This document shows positions 48,079 to 62,128 of a stretch of DNA of 64,000 bases, piece by piece. Numbering within the stretch: position 1 is the stretch's first letter; each line of letters starts with the position of its first letter. The notes beneath the pieces are model-generated. The model was not told the DNA's origin. It saw only the letters and a program-made list of their open reading frames with translations, and did not search any database. The position numbers and the translations under genes are program-made. The stretch comes from an uncultured Clostridia bacterium (lineage in GTDB: Bacteria; Bacillota; Clostridia; Christensenellales; Aristaeellaceae): NCBI GenBank assembly GCA_946627565.1, contig CAMOVR010000003.1, positions 1-64,000 on the forward strand. Direction: 5' to 3'.

Positions 48079-48279
48079 TTATTTGTAGGGCAGCAGCTTA
48101 TGGATCGTGCGGGCTTCTTCCTTGTTATCCACAATACCGTCATTACGCAGGTGACGGGTCCTCTTGGTGGTCTTGAGCCGAACCTGATGGTTGGCATTCA
48201 TCTGCTTATGCTTAACGATACCAGTCTTGGTAAAAGAGAAGCGCTTGGCAGCACCACGATGCGATTTCTGCTTAGGCAT
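48079..48279 (-). CDS. rpmI: 50S ribosomal protein L35
   Basis: MPKQKSHRGAAKRFSFTKTGIVKHKQMNANH. Confidence 0.97.
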   Translation of the reverse strand: MPKQKSHRGAAKRFSFTKTGIVKHKQMNANHQVRLKTTKRTRHLRNDGIVDNKEEARTIHKLLPYK

Positions 48280-53717: not shown

Positions 53718-55196
53718 TTACATAAGTTCAAACACATCCGATACCGTTTCCTGTTCAAAGCCGTCCCCGTATACCGTAACCCTGAGCCGGTACAGTCCTG
53801 CCCCGGCCGGTTCCCCGTTCCTGAGCTTTCCGTCCCAGTATAACGTGGTCCCCTCCGGATAGATCTGTTCCGGGCGCGACAGCTGGCGGGAAGCCAGGCG
53901 GCACACGCTCTCCCCTTCCACCGTTTCTATGACGGCGGACACTTCCGCAGGGCCCGTATGGGAAACCACAAAGCCCATCTCTTCTCCCCTGCCCGGTACA
54001 CAGCGGGAGCGCACCTGAACCGAGAGCTCCCCTTCTTCCGAAGCCGCCCGTCCTATGGCACGGGATGCCACGATCCTCACGCCCTTGGCATCCGTCACCA
54101 CCATCTGAAACAGCACATACCCTGAAAGCTGTCTGACGTCTTCTGCTATGCTCAGGGTTCTCTCCTTATAGCCCGGGGACAGATATCCCGCTCTCCCGTA
54201 GTATTCATCCGTGTCATACAGAATCCGGGCATTTTCAAAATCCCACCGGTTTCCCCGCTGGTACACAATCTGGTAGGACACCTGCACCTGCGCATAGACC
54301 GTGAAGGAAAACGAAATGTTCATATGGTCCGCTGTCAGCAGATCGCTTTCAAAGGAGATATTTCCCACCGCCTCCGTCTGCCGGCGAAGGGAAGAAACAT
54401 GATATGTCAGGACAGGAAAATCATCCTGCTCAGGATACACATGCACGGTACTGGAACCGTGCATGTTCAGCAGGTAGCGCACCAGTTCCTTAAGGGTAAT
54501 GCAGCCGTCCCGGTTCTCATCTGCGGCATATCCGGTCCGCACGCTTATGCCAGCGCTCAGCACCCCGGAAAAATAACCGCCCCCGGCCATCTCCCCGTCC
54601 TCTGTCATGCCGCCCCGCCAGAACCAGCTCTCCTCCGCCCCTCCCGAAGAACAGATGACCTTAAACTCACTGCCTTCAAAGATATGGCTGAACTCGTCCC
54701 GGATTCCCTTGGCAATCATGGCACCCGCATGGCAGGCGTCCACAATCAGGACCTTGGTGCCGGCGATCCCTGCAAAGGCATCGTGCAGCTGCTGTGCCGT
54801 AATACCGCTTTCCGTCCGGCCGTCCGAGAGCAGCATGGTCATGGAATACCCGGGTTCACCCGGCTCCCAGAGGCCATGGGTGCTGATGTAAAAATAGCTG
54901 ACATCCCCTTCCCTTGCATCCGCGAAGGTCTCCTGAATCAGATTTGTCAGCTCCCGGGCCCCTGAGACACCGTAGCGCCTGGTCACCAGCGTCTCCAGGT
55001 TCATGGATCCCCCGCTGAGCGCCTCCGCCATTTCCGCCACGTTATTGGAGGAAGAAGGGGAGGTATCCATCAGGGAGCGGAATACATCGCATCCCACCAG
55101 CAGCGCCCGGTTTTCAGCCCGGCCTAGACGCGGAAAGGCCAGAAGAAAAAGCAGGGCAAAGAGGAAAAGGACACGCCGAAACAACCGTATCCGCAT
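53718..55196 (-). CDS. secreted caspase-like (peptidase C14/clan CD) protein with EF-hand-like motif and FlgD-Ig-like C-terminus
   Basis: signal peptide; YFYISTHGLWE (catalytic His) and KVLIVDACHAGAM (catalytic Cys); DENRDGCITLKEL; WDGKLRNGEPAGAGLYRLRVTVYGDG. Confidence 0.82.
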   Translation of the reverse strand: MRIRLFRRVLFLFALLFLLAFPRLGRAENRALLVGCDVFRSLMDTSPSSSNNVAEMAEALSGGSMNLETLVTRRYGVSGARELTNLIQETFADAREGDVSYFYISTHGLWEPGEPGYSMTMLLSDGRTESGITAQQLHDAFAGIAGTKVLIVDACHAGAMIAKGIRDEFSHIFEGSEFKVICSSGGAEESWFWRGGMTEDGEMAGGGYFSGVLSAGISVRTGYAADENRDGCITLKELVRYLLNMHGSSTVHVYPEQDDFPVLTYHVSSLRRQTEAVGNISFESDLLTADHMNISFSFTVYAQVQVSYQIVYQRGNRWDFENARILYDTDEYYGRAGYLSPGYKERTLSIAEDVRQLSGYVLFQMVVTDAKGVRIVASRAIGRAASEEGELSVQVRSRCVPGRGEEMGFVVSHTGPAEVSAVIETVEGESVCRLASRQLSRPEQIYPEGTTLYWDGKLRNGEPAGAGLYRLRVTVYGDGFEQETVSDVFELM

Positions 55197-55227: not shown

Positions 55228-56487
55228 TCAGGTATTCTGAACCGCTCTGCCCTCCGCTTCCCGGATCAGGGCATGGAGCGCATGCTTCACCGTCAGTGTC
55301 CGGATCCGCTCCCGGGTCCCGGACAGGTGCAGGGCAACCGCATAGCTTTTCTCCCTGTCTGCGATTCCCAGAAACACTGTGCCCACAGGACATTCCTCTG
55401 TCCCGCCTCCCGGGCCTGCAACACCTGTAGCGCTGACAGCCATATCCACATCCAGTTTTTTCCGGGCCCCTTCCGCCATGGAAACGGCTACCTCTGCGCT
55501 GACCACCCCGCAGCGTTCAATCAGGTCGGAGGGCACACCCAGCATCATGGTCTTGGCTTCACTCTGGTAGGTTACGTATCCGCCCCGCAGCACATTCGAT
55601 GCACCCGGCACTTCCACCAGCGTCGCCGCAATCAGGCCGCCTGTGAGGCTTTCTGCAGTGGTCACGGTCATATGCCTTTTCATAAAGGCATCGATGCATG
55701 TTTTCTCAAGGGATCCGCTGTCATCCTCCCCGATTTCATAGATGACGTCTCCAAGCCTCTTTCGGATCTCCACAAGGAGCGGTTTCAGCAGTTCCAGTCC
55801 TTCCTTCTCATCCGCCGCCGCTGCCGTAGCCCGCAGCATGACTTCCCCTGTGGAGCAGTAGGGGCTCAGGGTCGGGTTGCCCCTCTCTTCCAGGTCATGC
55901 AGGCGCATATCCACTTCCGCTTCGCCCATACCGAAAATCCGGATATACCTGCTCACCAGCACGCTGCCGGTATATGCCCTGAGATACGGTTCCACCGCTT
56001 CCACAAACAGGGGCTCCAGTTCCCTTGGCGGCCCGGGCAGATGTATGATGACCTTTCCCTCTCCGGCCGGCACAATCGCCGCCGGGGCGGTTCCGTAGGG
56101 ATTCAGCAGCACCTGGCTGTCCCCGGTGAACATGGCCTGGGACCTGTTGTTTTCCGTCATCTGTTTGTGGTATTGCAGAAACCTCTCCCGGACCATCCTG
56201 TCCGCTTCGGGCCTGAGGACCAGTTCCTTCCCCAGCACCCTGGCTGCTGCCCGTTTGGTGATGTCGTCCACCGTAGGCCCGAGGCCTCCGCTGGTGATGA
56301 CAATATCGGATCTTCCCAGTGCCTGTCTGTATGCTTCCTCAAGCCTCTGTTCATTATCGCCCACCACCGTCTGGTGATACACGCTGATCCCCAGTGCTGA
56401 AAGCCGTCTTGAAAGAAACTGCGCATTGGTATTCAGCACCTGTCCCATGAGCAGTTCCGTTCCGACGCACAGGATTTCTGCAACCAC
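55228..56487 (-). CDS. cinA: competence/damage-inducible protein A (CinA, nicotinamide-nucleotide amidase) (GTG start)
   Basis: VAEILCVGTELLMGQVLNTNAQFLSRRL, TSGGLGPTVDDITKRAAARVLGKEL, C-terminal TTAESLTGGLIAATLVEVPGASNVLRGGYVTY, SATGVAGPGGGTEECPVGTV. Confidence 0.95.
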   Translation of the reverse strand: MVAEILCVGTELLMGQVLNTNAQFLSRRLSALGISVYHQTVVGDNEQRLEEAYRQALGRSDIVITSGGLGPTVDDITKRAAARVLGKELVLRPEADRMVRERFLQYHKQMTENNRSQAMFTGDSQVLLNPYGTAPAAIVPAGEGKVIIHLPGPPRELEPLFVEAVEPYLRAYTGSVLVSRYIRIFGMGEAEVDMRLHDLEERGNPTLSPYCSTGEVMLRATAAAADEKEGLELLKPLLVEIRKRLGDVIYEIGEDDSGSLEKTCIDAFMKRHMTVTTAESLTGGLIAATLVEVPGASNVLRGGYVTYQSEAKTMMLGVPSDLIERCGVVSAEVAVSMAEGARKKLDVDMAVSATGVAGPGGGTEECPVGTVFLGIADREKSYAVALHLSGTRERIRTLTVKHALHALIREAEGRAVQNT

Positions 56488-56764
56488 GCTCCTACCCGCT
56501 CCCTTAAAAAAATAGAAAAAACCGGACATGATTGTACCACAAACGTAAGAAAGACAGAATAGAAGCAGTACCGTCTTCTCCCGACCCATATATCTGACGC
56601 ATGATATCCCGGATTGTTTCGTTTCTTCCGTGTTTTCCTGAAACGGGCCCTGCATGAAATGCCATGGTATTTTTGCTGTATCTTTCCGGGATGTTATGAA
56701 GGAAAAAAACATCATCTGCAGAAAGGTAGAGGTACATATTACAGCAACAAAGGAGATCTCAGCC

Positions 56765-57052
56765 ATGACACATTATGTTCTTATGAAATTCAAACCCGGC
56801 ACAGACCTCGCCGGCAGCGAGAAACGCATCCGGGAAACCTACAGCCAGCTTGACGCGGCTCTTCCTTTCCTGCACAACCCCAGGATTTACCGGAACTGTG
56901 TGGAGCGGGACAGCAACGCAGACATTATGGCTGTCATTGATCTTGACAGCGAAGAGGACCTGCCGCGCTACCTCAACCACCCTCTTCACCTGCAGATGGC
57001 AGCCAGCTTCAGAGACAGCATTGTAAACCGCGTCTCTTTTGATCATCCCTGA
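56765..57052 (+). CDS. Dabb (stress-responsive alpha/beta barrel) domain protein
   Basis: HYVLMKFKPGTDLA...YRNCVERDSNADIMAVIDLDSEEDLPRYLNHPLHLQMAASFRDSIVNRVSFDH. Confidence 0.85.
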   Translation: MTHYVLMKFKPGTDLAGSEKRIRETYSQLDAALPFLHNPRIYRNCVERDSNADIMAVIDLDSEEDLPRYLNHPLHLQMAASFRDSIVNRVSFDHP

Positions 57053-57085
57053 CATCATGAATACCATCAAGGAGGTATCTTCACC

Positions 57086-58225
57086 ATGAGCCTGAAAAAG
57101 AACTCCATTTTCGCCGCGTCCTACCTTGGCGTGGCTTCTGTCTGGCTGGGAGGCCACTTCGGCCCCGGCTTTGCCACTGGCGCCTTTTCTGTCACCTATT
57201 ATGTCAAGTACGGCTGGGTCGGTCTTCTCATGCCGCTGCTGGCCATGCTGATTACCGGCGGTGTCATCTTTTACATGACGGAATACGCCCGGAGCCAGGG
57301 CACCACCAGCTACCGTCCCTTCGTCATCTCCTGCTTTGGGGAGAAATACGGAAAGTACATTGCCGTTTTCTACGACATTCTTTTCCTGGCCACCGTCATG
57401 TGCGCAGGCGGCCTGGCTTTCTCCGGCGAGGCCAATGTGCTGATGAATTTCGGTTTCAGCTACTGGGGCGCTGCCATTCCCACCATCATCATCTCAGCCC
57501 TGCTGTGCCTGTACGGATCCAAACTTGTCAGCCGCTCTTCAAAATACATGATGTACGCCATCGTTGCGGTGGTTCTCCTCATTGCCATTCTCAGCTTCAC
57601 CCTGGGCAGCTATGACTTTGCTGCCGCGGTGGCTGCCCCGCCTGTCAGCACAGCCGAGCCCAACCTGCTTCATGCCATCCTCAGCGCCATCCTGTATGGC
57701 TGCTTCCAGTCCACCATTGCCTTCAATGTCATGTCCGTAGCTGACCTGCTGGAGAGCCGGAACGAGACCCGGAAGGCCATTGTTGCGGGCTACATCATCA
57801 CCGTCATTCTGATGATCGCCATTGCCATCACCCTCTTCAGCTATGTCACCATCATTCCGGACCTGTGCAATCCCGGTGTTGTGGCTGTCCCGATCATGGC
57901 CGTGCTGGGTCGGCTGAACATGCCCTGGCTCACCTGGCTGTTTGTTCTGCTCATGACGCTGGCGGTTCTCACCAGCGCCGCAGGCCTGGCCAATGCAGGC
58001 TGTGCCCGGTTCGATCATCTCTTCAAGTTCATCAAGAACCAGCAGCTCCGGCGCACCGTCATCACCTGCATCCTGCTGGGCGTGGCTGCCCTGGGTGCTT
58101 CCTTTGGCATGAAGGCCCTCCTGCAGCAGGGTACTTCCATCGTGGGCTACATCGGCATTGCAGCCCTGGTGATTCCTGCCTTTACCATTGTCCGTTCAAA
58201 ACTCAGCAAGTCAAAGAATGTATAA
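57086..58225 (+). CDS. YkvI-family membrane transporter
   Basis: multiple TM helices; AASYLGVASVWLGGHFGPGFATGAF N-terminal motif. Confidence 0.8.
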   Translation: MSLKKNSIFAASYLGVASVWLGGHFGPGFATGAFSVTYYVKYGWVGLLMPLLAMLITGGVIFYMTEYARSQGTTSYRPFVISCFGEKYGKYIAVFYDILFLATVMCAGGLAFSGEANVLMNFGFSYWGAAIPTIIISALLCLYGSKLVSRSSKYMMYAIVAVVLLIAILSFTLGSYDFAAAVAAPPVSTAEPNLLHAILSAILYGCFQSTIAFNVMSVADLLESRNETRKAIVAGYIITVILMIAIAITLFSYVTIIPDLCNPGVVAVPIMAVLGRLNMPWLTWLFVLLMTLAVLTSAAGLANAGCARFDHLFKFIKNQQLRRTVITCILLGVAALGASFGMKALLQQGTSIVGYIGIAALVIPAFTIVRSKLSKSKNV

Positions 58226-58239
58226 TCCACAGGCTATGC

Positions 58240-58270
58240 AAAAAGGGGGCAGCATCCGCTGCCCCTTTTT
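58240..58270 (+). terminator. intrinsic terminator
   Basis: AAAAAGGGGGCAGC-ATCC-GCTGCCCCTTTTT. Confidence 0.88.
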
Positions 58271-58384
58271 GAAAACAGCACTTCAGGGGATCGTTTCATT
58301 TCCATGGCAGGTTCATAAAATCAGTTTACCCGTCTGAAGGAAGTCCTGCAAGGAATTATAAACATCCACCGTCCTGTGCTATCC

Positions 58385-58489
58385 TGTGTATAACTCTGAC
58401 ATATAAGCAAACACTTATTGACAGATTGTGCATAACTTGTGGATAAGTTGTGGGAAAGCTGTGGAAAGTTTCCTGAAACCTCTGGATAA
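58385..58489. repeat. cluster of DnaA-box-like 9-mers with 11-bp periodicity
   Basis: TGTGTATAA 58385-58393, TGTGCATAA 58427-58435, TGTGGATAA 58438-58446, degenerate TTGTGGGAAAG and CTGTGGAAAGT at 58448 and 58459, TCTGGATAA 58481-58489. Confidence 0.7.
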
Positions 58490-58510
58490 CTGTACCGGGC
58501 AGTGCAAACA

Positions 58511-58534
58511 CAGACCTGCAGAAATGCAGGTCTG
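58511..58534. terminator. hairpin downstream of typA
   Basis: CAGACCTGCA-GAAA-TGCAGGTCTG. Confidence 0.6.
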
Positions 58535-58542
58535 TCTTCTGA

Positions 58543-60378
58543 TCAGTCTTGTGTCTGATTTCTCCACTGTCTGGAGCGGTCACCGGCACTGAGAATCTTC
58601 TTGCGCATGCGCAGATTCTTCGGCGTAATTTCCAGAAGCTCGTCGTCATCAATAAATTCCAGGCATTCCTCCATGGACAGGGGATGCACGGAAACCAGGC
58701 GCAGGGAATCCTCGGAGGCAGAGGCATTACGCATATTGGTCACATGCTTCTGCTTGCACACATTCACCACAAGGTCTCCCGGCCGGGCGTTCTGACCGAC
58801 AATCATGCCCTCATACACTTCAATACCCGCGCCAATAAACAGGGTGCCTCTCTCCTGGGCATAGAACAGGCCATAGGAGTTGCTGGTTCCTGTCTCATGG
58901 GCCACCAGTGCACCGGCATTGCGGTGGGGAATATCACCCTTGATGGGCTCATACTTTTCAAACACGGAGGACATGATACCCTCGCCCCGGGTATCCGTCA
59001 TAAACTCGCTCCGGTATCCGAACAGGCCACGGGAGGGAACCAGGAACTCCAGACGCACCCGGTCATATCCGCTCATGTGTTCCAGCGTGCCGCGGCGGCG
59101 GCCGATCTTTTCAATGACAGCACCGGCAGTAGCCTGGGGCGTATCCACCACCAGACGCTCCATGGGTTCACATTTGACACCGTCAATCACCTTGTAAATG
59201 ACCCTGGGCTTGCTTACTGCAAACTCATATCCCTGACGGCGCATATTCTCAATGAGAATGGAAAGATGGAGCTCGCCGCGTCCGCAGACTTCAAAGGCGT
59301 CGGTGGAATCGGTTTCATTCACCCGCAGGGATACGTCCGTCTGCAGTTCCCGCATAAGCCGGGCCCTCAGGTGTCTGCTGGTAACATACTCGCCTTCCCT
59401 GCCGGCAAAGGGACTGTCATTGACCTGGAAAGTCATGGTCACGGTGGGCTCTGAAATCCGGACGAAGGGCAGGCCTTCCACGCAGGACGGATCGCAGACC
59501 GTATCGCCGATGGAAATATCCGACATGCCGCACAGAGCCACAATATCGCCCATGCTGACTTCCTCAGCAGATACCCTCTTGAGGCCGTCATAGCTGTACA
59601 TTTCACTCAGGCGCCATACAGGGCTTGTCACACCGGTCTCCACATTGGTATGCACCACATTCATGCCGGCGTGGAACTTGCCGCGGGTAATACGGCCCAC
59701 ACCGATGCGGCCCACATATTCGCTGTAGTCAATGGTGGAGATAAGCACCTGCGCCGGTCCGTCCGGATCACCTTCAGGAGCAGGAATATACTTGAGGATA
59801 GCATCAAAGAGGGGTCTGAGGTCCGTGCCGGGTACCGACAGATCTGTGGTGGCCGTGCCTTTTCTGGCACTGACATAGAGAATCGGGTTATCCAGTGTGG
59901 TTTCATCCGCTTCCAGATCAATGAGCAGGTCCAGGATTTCACTGACAACCTCTTCACATCTGGCATCCGGGCGGTCCACCTTATTGATGACAATGAGAAC
60001 CTTCAGCTTCAGGTCCAGTGCCTTTTTCAGCACAAACCTGGTCTGGGGCATGGGACCTTCAAAACTGTCCACCAGCAACAGAACGCCATCCACCATTTTC
60101 AGGACGCGCTCCACCTCGCCGCCAAAGTCTGCATGGCCGGGGGTATCCACAATATTGATCTTGTGTCCCTGATAATGAACAGCCGTATTCTTTGCAAGAA
60201 TCGTAATGCCGCGTTCACGTTCGATGGCATTTGAGTCCATGACGCGGTCCACCGTCTGCTGGTTTTCCCTGAACACGCCGCCCTGTTTCAGCATCTGGTC
60301 CACCAGGGTTGTCTTGCCGTGGTCAACGTGGGCAATGATTGCAATATTCCGAATATCTTCACGAATGATGGAAATCAA
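58543..60378 (-). CDS. typA: ribosome-associated GTPase TypA/BipA
   Basis: RNIAIIAHVDHGKTTLVDQMLKQGGVFRENQ, RERGITILAKNTAV, DTPGHADFGGEVERVL; full-length BipA architecture. Confidence 0.97.
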   Translation of the reverse strand: MISIIREDIRNIAIIAHVDHGKTTLVDQMLKQGGVFRENQQTVDRVMDSNAIERERGITILAKNTAVHYQGHKINIVDTPGHADFGGEVERVLKMVDGVLLLVDSFEGPMPQTRFVLKKALDLKLKVLIVINKVDRPDARCEEVVSEILDLLIDLEADETTLDNPILYVSARKGTATTDLSVPGTDLRPLFDAILKYIPAPEGDPDGPAQVLISTIDYSEYVGRIGVGRITRGKFHAGMNVVHTNVETGVTSPVWRLSEMYSYDGLKRVSAEEVSMGDIVALCGMSDISIGDTVCDPSCVEGLPFVRISEPTVTMTFQVNDSPFAGREGEYVTSRHLRARLMRELQTDVSLRVNETDSTDAFEVCGRGELHLSILIENMRRQGYEFAVSKPRVIYKVIDGVKCEPMERLVVDTPQATAGAVIEKIGRRRGTLEHMSGYDRVRLEFLVPSRGLFGYRSEFMTDTRGEGIMSSVFEKYEPIKGDIPHRNAGALVAHETGTSNSYGLFYAQERGTLFIGAGIEVYEGMIVGQNARPGDLVVNVCKQKHVTNMRNASASEDSLRLVSVHPLSMEECLEFIDDDELLEITPKNLRMRKKILSAGDRSRQWRNQTQD

Positions 60379-60386
60379 CTTCTTTC

Positions 60387-62009
60387 TTACGCATTTCTCG
60401 ATGACGTATCCGTCAGTTCCAGCCCGGGATTATTCTCACAGGCAAGACGGATACTCCACTCATTCTCAAACAGCAGCACGTCCCGGTCACGACTGTCCCT
60501 GGCACGGCCCGATGTGGATGTCAGCTTCAGTTCTTCCACTGGCTTTGGTGTCTTCACAACCCATCTTACATAATGGAAGGGCTGCGGTTCCCGGACAATC
60601 TCAGCCTGGTATTCGGTCCGCATCCGGTGCTCCAGCACCTCAAACTGCAGCACACCTACCACGCCCACAAGGAATTCTTCCTTGCCGGTTTCCGTCCGGG
60701 TAAAGGTCTGTATGGCACCCTCTTCTGCAAGCTGCTGAATACCCTTCTGAAACTGTTTGCGTTTGAGGGAATCTGTGGGTCTGACCCGGTTGAAGTGCTC
60801 CGGGGCAAACACCGGGATGTTTTCGTAATGCATCTTCGGTCCTGTGGAAAGCGTATCCCCCAGCTGATATATTCCGGGGTCAAACAGACCGATGATATCC
60901 CCTGCCCAGGCTTCTTCCACGGCTTCCCGCTCATCTGCCATGAACTGCTGAGGCTGTTTGAGGGCAACCGGTTTTCCGCTGCCGCTGTGCCAGACCTCCA
61001 TGCCTTTTTCGAATGCACCGCTGACAATACGCATAAAGGCAAGACGGTCCCGGTGTGCAGGGTTCATGTTTGCCTGAATTTTGAAGATAAATCCGGAGAA
61101 ATAAGGTGATTCCGGTCCAATATCTCCAAGATCGCTCTGCCGGGGCAGAGGCGGCGTCGTGTACTGAAGGAAACGTTTGAGGAACGGTTCCACACCGAAA
61201 TTGGTTATGGCGCTTCCAAAGAAAAGGGGAGTCAGTTCGCCTCTGCGCACAGCATCCAGGTCGAAATCGTCCCCGGCCACGTCCAGAAGTTCAATCTCTT
61301 CTTTCAGCCGGTCAATATATCCCTGATTCAGGACATCGGACAGTGCCGGATCATCCACGGAAATATCCGTTTTCTGTACCATCTTCTGTCCATGATCCCC
61401 GCCGGTGTACAGTTCCACCATTCTGGAGTCACGGTGATACACGCCCTGAAAATCGCCATCGACACCGATGGGCCAGTTGATGGGACAGGAACGGATGCCC
61501 AGAACCTGTTCCAGTTCCTCCATGAGGGAAAAGGGATCCTTTGCCGCACGGTCCATCTTGTTTACAAAAGTAAAAATCGGGATATGGCGCATACGGCAGA
61601 CCTTGAACAGCTTGATGGTCTGTGCTTCTACACCTTTGGCAGCATCGATCAGCATGACAGCAGAGTCTGCCGCCACAAGCACGCGGTAGGTATCTTCAGA
61701 GAAGTCCTGATGGCCGGGTGTATCCAGGATATTGATCCTGAACCCGTCGAAGTCAAACTGCATGGCTGAACTCGTCACGGAAATACCGCGCTGCTTTTCA
61801 ATCTCCATCCAGTCGCTCGTAGCATGCCTGTCACTCTTGCGTGCCTTGACTGATCCCGCCGAGCGGATCGCGCCTCCGTAAAGAAGCAGTTTTTCTGTCA
61901 GTGTTGTTTTGCCGGCATCCGGGTGGGATATGATTGCGAAGGTTCTTCGCTTCTCCACCTGTTCATGCAGCAAGTCGATGAATGCCTGCGTATCTCTCGA
62001 AGGCAGCAT
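60387..62009 (-). CDS. prfC: peptide chain release factor 3
   Basis: RRTFAIISHPDAGKTTLTEKLLLYGGAIRSAGSVKARK, SDWMEIEKQRGISVTSSAMQF, DTPGHQDFSEDTYRVLVAADSAVMLIDAAKGVE. Confidence 0.97.
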   Translation of the reverse strand: MLPSRDTQAFIDLLHEQVEKRRTFAIISHPDAGKTTLTEKLLLYGGAIRSAGSVKARKSDRHATSDWMEIEKQRGISVTSSAMQFDFDGFRINILDTPGHQDFSEDTYRVLVAADSAVMLIDAAKGVEAQTIKLFKVCRMRHIPIFTFVNKMDRAAKDPFSLMEELEQVLGIRSCPINWPIGVDGDFQGVYHRDSRMVELYTGGDHGQKMVQKTDISVDDPALSDVLNQGYIDRLKEEIELLDVAGDDFDLDAVRRGELTPLFFGSAITNFGVEPFLKRFLQYTTPPLPRQSDLGDIGPESPYFSGFIFKIQANMNPAHRDRLAFMRIVSGAFEKGMEVWHSGSGKPVALKQPQQFMADEREAVEEAWAGDIIGLFDPGIYQLGDTLSTGPKMHYENIPVFAPEHFNRVRPTDSLKRKQFQKGIQQLAEEGAIQTFTRTETGKEEFLVGVVGVLQFEVLEHRMRTEYQAEIVREPQPFHYVRWVVKTPKPVEELKLTSTSGRARDSRDRDVLLFENEWSIRLACENNPGLELTDTSSRNA

Positions 62010-62027
62010 GCAACCCCTCCATCTTCC

Positions 62028-62072
62028 AAAAGTACAGTGAAGTATTATCTTCAGGGTACTTTTTCTTGTCAA
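62028..62072 (-). promoter_or_regulatory. prfC promoter overlapped by 15-bp inverted repeat
   Basis: minus strand TTGACA (62072-62067)-17-GATAAT (62049-62044); IR AAAAGTACAGTGAAG-TATTAT-CTTCAGGGTACTTTT, 13/15 paired. Confidence 0.65.
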
Positions 62073-62128
62073 GACCATATCTGAAGAGTCATCCGAAAAC
62101 CCAATGAAAACACATTTCATACAGACGT

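Follow-up and report, generated by a model that had tools for sequence, protein, structure and literature searches.

A phased DnaA-box array between a ykvI-like gene and typA in an uncultured Clostridia bacterium is probably a species-specific cluster outside oriC

Bacillus subtilis initiates early when six DnaA-box clusters that lie outside oriC are removed, and the effect is strong only when all six are gone (Okumura et al. 2012, as described in the reviews PMC13220808 and PMC5295017). In Escherichia coli, the essential boxes of datA face the same direction, an IHF site lies between boxes, and HU is no substitute for IHF (PMC5742627). In the DARS core, box I is oriented against boxes II and III (PMC5742627). 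The boxes that we read for E. coli DARS1 between bioD and uvrB in NC_000913 (L231; 308+, 322- and 334-) match this published description (PMC5742627).

The window analyzed here, by which we mean the whole stretch of 64,000 bases, covers 64,000 of the 65,631 bases of contig C3 in a draft genome of 4.16 Mb (321 contigs, 83% complete). A ykvI-like gene and typA converge on a 315-bp gap that contains three exact TTATNCACA boxes and one near box, all on the minus strand. The coordinates and sequences given in the initial annotation for three same-orientation boxes and a near match are exact, and two weaker boxes lie among them:

58226-58540, no strand: convergent intergenic region with the array (GC 45%, against 57% for the window)
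58385-58393, minus strand: exact DnaA box TTATACACA, by sequence match
58427-58435, minus strand: exact DnaA box TTATGCACA, by sequence match
58438-58446, minus strand: exact DnaA box TTATCCACA, by sequence match
58449-58457, minus strand: two-mismatch box TTTCCCACA, unit 3 of the 11-bp register
58460-58468, minus strand: two-mismatch box CTTTCCACA, unit 4 of the 11-bp register
58481-58489, minus strand: near box (one-mismatch DnaA box) TTATCCAGA

Box starts follow one another along the array at 42, 11, 11, 11 and 21 bp, and 43 bp separate 58438 from 58481, which confirms that the outer boxes lie 42 and 43 bp from the inner pair. The proposed 11-bp direct-repeat register, spanning 58427-58470, is real: at a lag of 11 this segment matches itself at 24 of 33 bases, whereas the maximum among 5,000 shuffles was 18. 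Dinucleotide shuffles of the gap (58226-58540) contained 0.014 exact boxes on average, and none of 20,000 contained three or more. Elsewhere in the 64-kb window there is only one exact box, at 48125. On the plus strand of the gap, the only one-mismatch sites are TTATTGACA at 58415 and TTATAAACA at 58356. Like DARS1 and DARS2, the array holds three boxes within a short stretch, but its boxes all face one direction whereas DARS box I is opposite to boxes II and III. Judged against the DARS1 geometry, this orientation excludes the DARS-like role that had been suggested for the array.

Exact boxes occur 112 times in the genome and the reversed motif 34 times. In a set of 41 genomes that reaches from the genus to the order, we counted 53 tandem pairs (same-strand exact boxes with a gap of 0-30 bases), against none for the reversed motif. 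Start distances fell at 9-14 bp in 30 pairs and at 19-24 bp in 17, and only 2 of the 53 lay at 15-18 bp. Since 47 of the 53 pairs are spaced at about one or two helical turns, helical phasing is general among these boxes and not special to the array; the associated p-value of 6e-14 is indicative only, as the bins were picked with the helical repeat in mind. Such phasing is consistent with cooperative DnaA binding. In one member of the genus, G001, boxes (58) hardly outnumber the reversed motif (50), unlike in several relatives, and there were zero tandem pairs. The array shares its motif with the boxes that precede dnaA in this genome. In a congener, the C-terminal helix-turn-helix domain of DnaA is complete and the protein carries a DHTTV motif, which has a role in box recognition.

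An origin of chromosomal replication was among the roles proposed for the array, and it is indeed a DnaA-box cluster in comparatively AT-rich intergenic DNA (58385-58489 has 37% GC). Consistent with the earlier remark that the window holds no dnaA, a genome search placed this gene on a separate contig, C320 (2,609 bases). Upstream of it (L008, 799-941) lie two pairs of boxes, one of exact boxes at a distance of 12 bp and one of TTATCAACA boxes at 11 bp, and box clusters are also present upstream of dnaA in three congeners (G002, G004 and G008). This putative oriC resembles the array in its motif and tandem boxes, but differs in that it adjoins dnaA and is matched by clusters at the equivalent position in congeners. 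Skew values (GC) stay negative from 48 kb up to the end of the contig at 65.6 kb, that is, on both sides of the array, with no sign change at it. Because dnaA and its boxes are on C320, congeners have clusters upstream of dnaA and the skew does not switch, the array is very unlikely to be oriC; its lack of conservation, described below, also speaks against this role, which we consider virtually eliminated.

The genome contains at least four further exact-box clusters outside oriC besides the array:

C11:4442-4503: exact-box cluster, three boxes
C20:17986-18130 (L004:5987-6131): exact-box cluster, five boxes, in the rluD-rfbB gap
C65:4605-4813 (L005:4594-4813): exact-box cluster, four boxes, beside a DUF1292-like ORF (named by resemblance)
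C200:832-1010: exact-box cluster, three boxes

Two of these recur in relatives: the C20 cluster in the rluD-rfbB gap and the C65 cluster next to the DUF1292-like gene. In the rluD gap, an inverted box is followed after 12 bp by a second box, and a third lies 20-21 bp further on; this arrangement is found in G000, G002, G003, G004, G005 and G008, with some boxes carrying one mismatch. The gap downstream of the rluD homologue adjoins rfbB in most congeners, and the core TGTGGATAA-N12-TTATCCACA-(weak box)-TTATCCACA is likewise present in most of them (L178, L179, L180, L181, L185). The gap holds a diverged version of the cluster in G006, only TTTTCCACA and TTCTCCACA boxes in G007, and no boxes in G001. 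Several of the rluD-gap boxes in G003, G006 and G007 (L185, L186, L189) have the form TTTTCCACA in place of TTATCCACA, a hint that box preference has shifted. The core was rejected as a DARS-like element, its inverted pair TGTGGATAA-N12-TTATCCACA being divergent and the DARS1 pair convergent. The DUF1292-side cluster occurs in five of nine genus genomes (G000, G008, G004, G005 and G002; congener copies at L213:3570-3776, L214:3345-3551, L215 and L222), with identical box spacings in G004 and G008 (13, 97, 24, 40). It is these two sites, and not the typA array, that are conserved as expected of a lasting regulatory site, and the rluD-rfbB cluster is a better candidate than the array for a lasting DnaA site outside oriC.

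The genes surrounding the array are arranged as follows:

55228-56766, minus strand: cinA, which in seven congeners follows typA directly
56771-57085, plus strand: stretch upstream of ykvI, homologous in relatives, where it looks like the end of a small ORF
57086-58225, plus strand: ykvI-like gene (the name is that of the initial annotation), member of a cassette located elsewhere in G003, G004 and G008
58543-60378, minus strand: typA (TIGR01394, 881 bits)
60387-62120, minus strand: prfC

The ykvI-like gene had no Pfam or NCBIfam match, and the actual start of cinA is probably near 56490. Beside cinA lies a caspase-like gene (53718-55196, minus strand) that matches Pfam Peptidase_C14 and, below its cut-off, an NCBIfam EACC1-type caspase; it stays next to cinA in congeners. 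In seven congeners (G001 and G003-G008; TypA 90-95% identical), prfC, typA and cinA form a contiguous run, with about 50-125 bp (by protein match) between typA and cinA, and there are no exact boxes in roughly 4.8 kb around typA. No boxes were found within 1.5 kb after typA in G002. In a more distant relative, a RecF-like gene (L021:7887-8975; SMC_N/RecF domain) directly follows typA; recF-type genes are often near oriC.

In the window, a block of ~2 kb consisting of the ykvI cassette and the array separates typA from cinA (56490-58540). In three congeners (G003, G004 and G008) the cassette itself, which here runs from 56771 to about 58211, occupies other places, at ~75% DNA identity and with no box cluster beside it. 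Homology to the relatives' cassette stops near the ykvI stop and typA homology starts at about 58537; the array sits in the remaining unmatched stretch, unique to this genome. A search of eight congeners found no homologous array DNA, only a 29-base match in G008 to the terminator part. We rejected the possibility that the array was carried in with the ykvI cassette, because no cluster lies beside the relatives' ykvI and homology ends near its stop. A mobile or plasmid origin was also rejected, as the array stretch matched no plasmid or phage.

Conservation beside typA, named as a check in the initial annotation, was thus absent from all congeners examined, whose genomes are incomplete drafts; conserved position would support, without defining, a cluster of the B. 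subtilis type. Of the outcomes that had been held to speak against a replication role (a GC-skew minimum and a denser cluster elsewhere, with no conservation in close relatives), denser clusters elsewhere in the genome and the lack of conservation were both found. The species is represented by one genome, and the ykvI block between typA and cinA may reflect misassembly. Because the array is missing at the orthologous place in congeners, selection for a function is unproven, and there is a real chance that it is neutral. It is possible, if doubtful, that the array is chance or relic sequence without function, in filler left behind when a rearrangement placed the ykvI cassette between typA and cinA: it is unconserved, and it occupies just the unique stretch between the two ends of homology. 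Three exact boxes in 62 bp together with an 11-bp register, however, never arise in shuffles, and similarly spaced clusters exist elsewhere in the genome.

Lack of conservation bears also on the comparison with datA. As in E. coli datA, the boxes of the array share one direction, strong ones are mixed with weak ones and the setting is non-coding (PMC5742627), and the shared direction of the boxes would suit a datA-like locus promoting DnaA-ATP hydrolysis. We regard such a locus as unlikely, since datA depends on its IHF site, with HU no substitute (PMC5742627), and since the array, unlike other clusters in this genome, lacks conservation. A datA mechanism for the array is unsupported; of the datA-like role first proposed, titration in a loose sense is possible.

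The region was originally described as bracketed by terminators, which is correct on one side:

58246-58265, minus strand by scan call: terminator hairpin on the ykvI side, with a plus-strand T-run after the stem seen by eye
58511-58534, minus strand: hairpin just 3' of typA, without a T-run and not called as a terminator by the scan

The first is a good terminator; the second exists, but is at best a weak one. Since it lacks a T-run, typA transcripts may run through the array, where bound DnaA could act on either gene, typA or ykvI, by way of read-through, 3' ends or antisense RNA. We consider a DnaA-responsive regulatory site of this kind rather unlikely: the genes are convergent, a scan of the gap found no promoter-like site between the ykvI-like gene and typA, and no RNA family in Rfam matched the gap. 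A small RNA in the gap was rejected for want of a credible Rfam match and a promoter-like site. The one sub-threshold Rfam match, to a microRNA, lies inside ykvI.

Taken together, these results make it probable that the array is a secondary, species-specific DnaA-box cluster outside oriC. We favor this reading because of the exact boxes and 11-bp register beyond shuffles, the excess of boxes and of helically spaced tandem pairs far above the control, the motif shared with the region upstream of dnaA, where three congeners also have clusters, the complete helix-turn-helix domain of congener DnaA, and the absence of a promoter-like site between the two genes. The genome resembles that of B. subtilis, also a Firmicute, in having several consensus-box clusters, above chance, dispersed outside oriC; by analogy, a role as a DnaA sink is plausible for the array, which differs from the B. 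subtilis clusters in being private to one species. Most likely, it would be an ordinary DnaA-binding cluster and a weak sink, probably redundant. With its three strong, one near and two weak boxes facing one way, predicted to be on one side of the helix, DnaA may bind head-to-tail and cooperatively. DnaA bound in this manner would be withdrawn from oriC, and the small sink so formed would add to the other non-oriC clusters of the genome. Occupancy of the array by DnaA, cooperative binding there and any influence on when replication starts are inferred from the base sequence.

These findings indicate that an array of DnaA boxes adjoining a housekeeping gene is not necessarily an origin or a regulator that is conserved. 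This uncultured Clostridia genus has dispersed clusters of DnaA boxes, of the type already described in Bacillus; they are helically phased, partly conserved and partly private. We tentatively speculate that in the genus such clusters might turn over like accessory elements, with a small conserved set (in the rluD-rfbB gap and on the DUF1292 side) and private ones like the typA array, each helically phased, together setting a species-specific sink capacity that would tune initiation. The conserved clusters are better places than the flagged array to seek the control of initiation.
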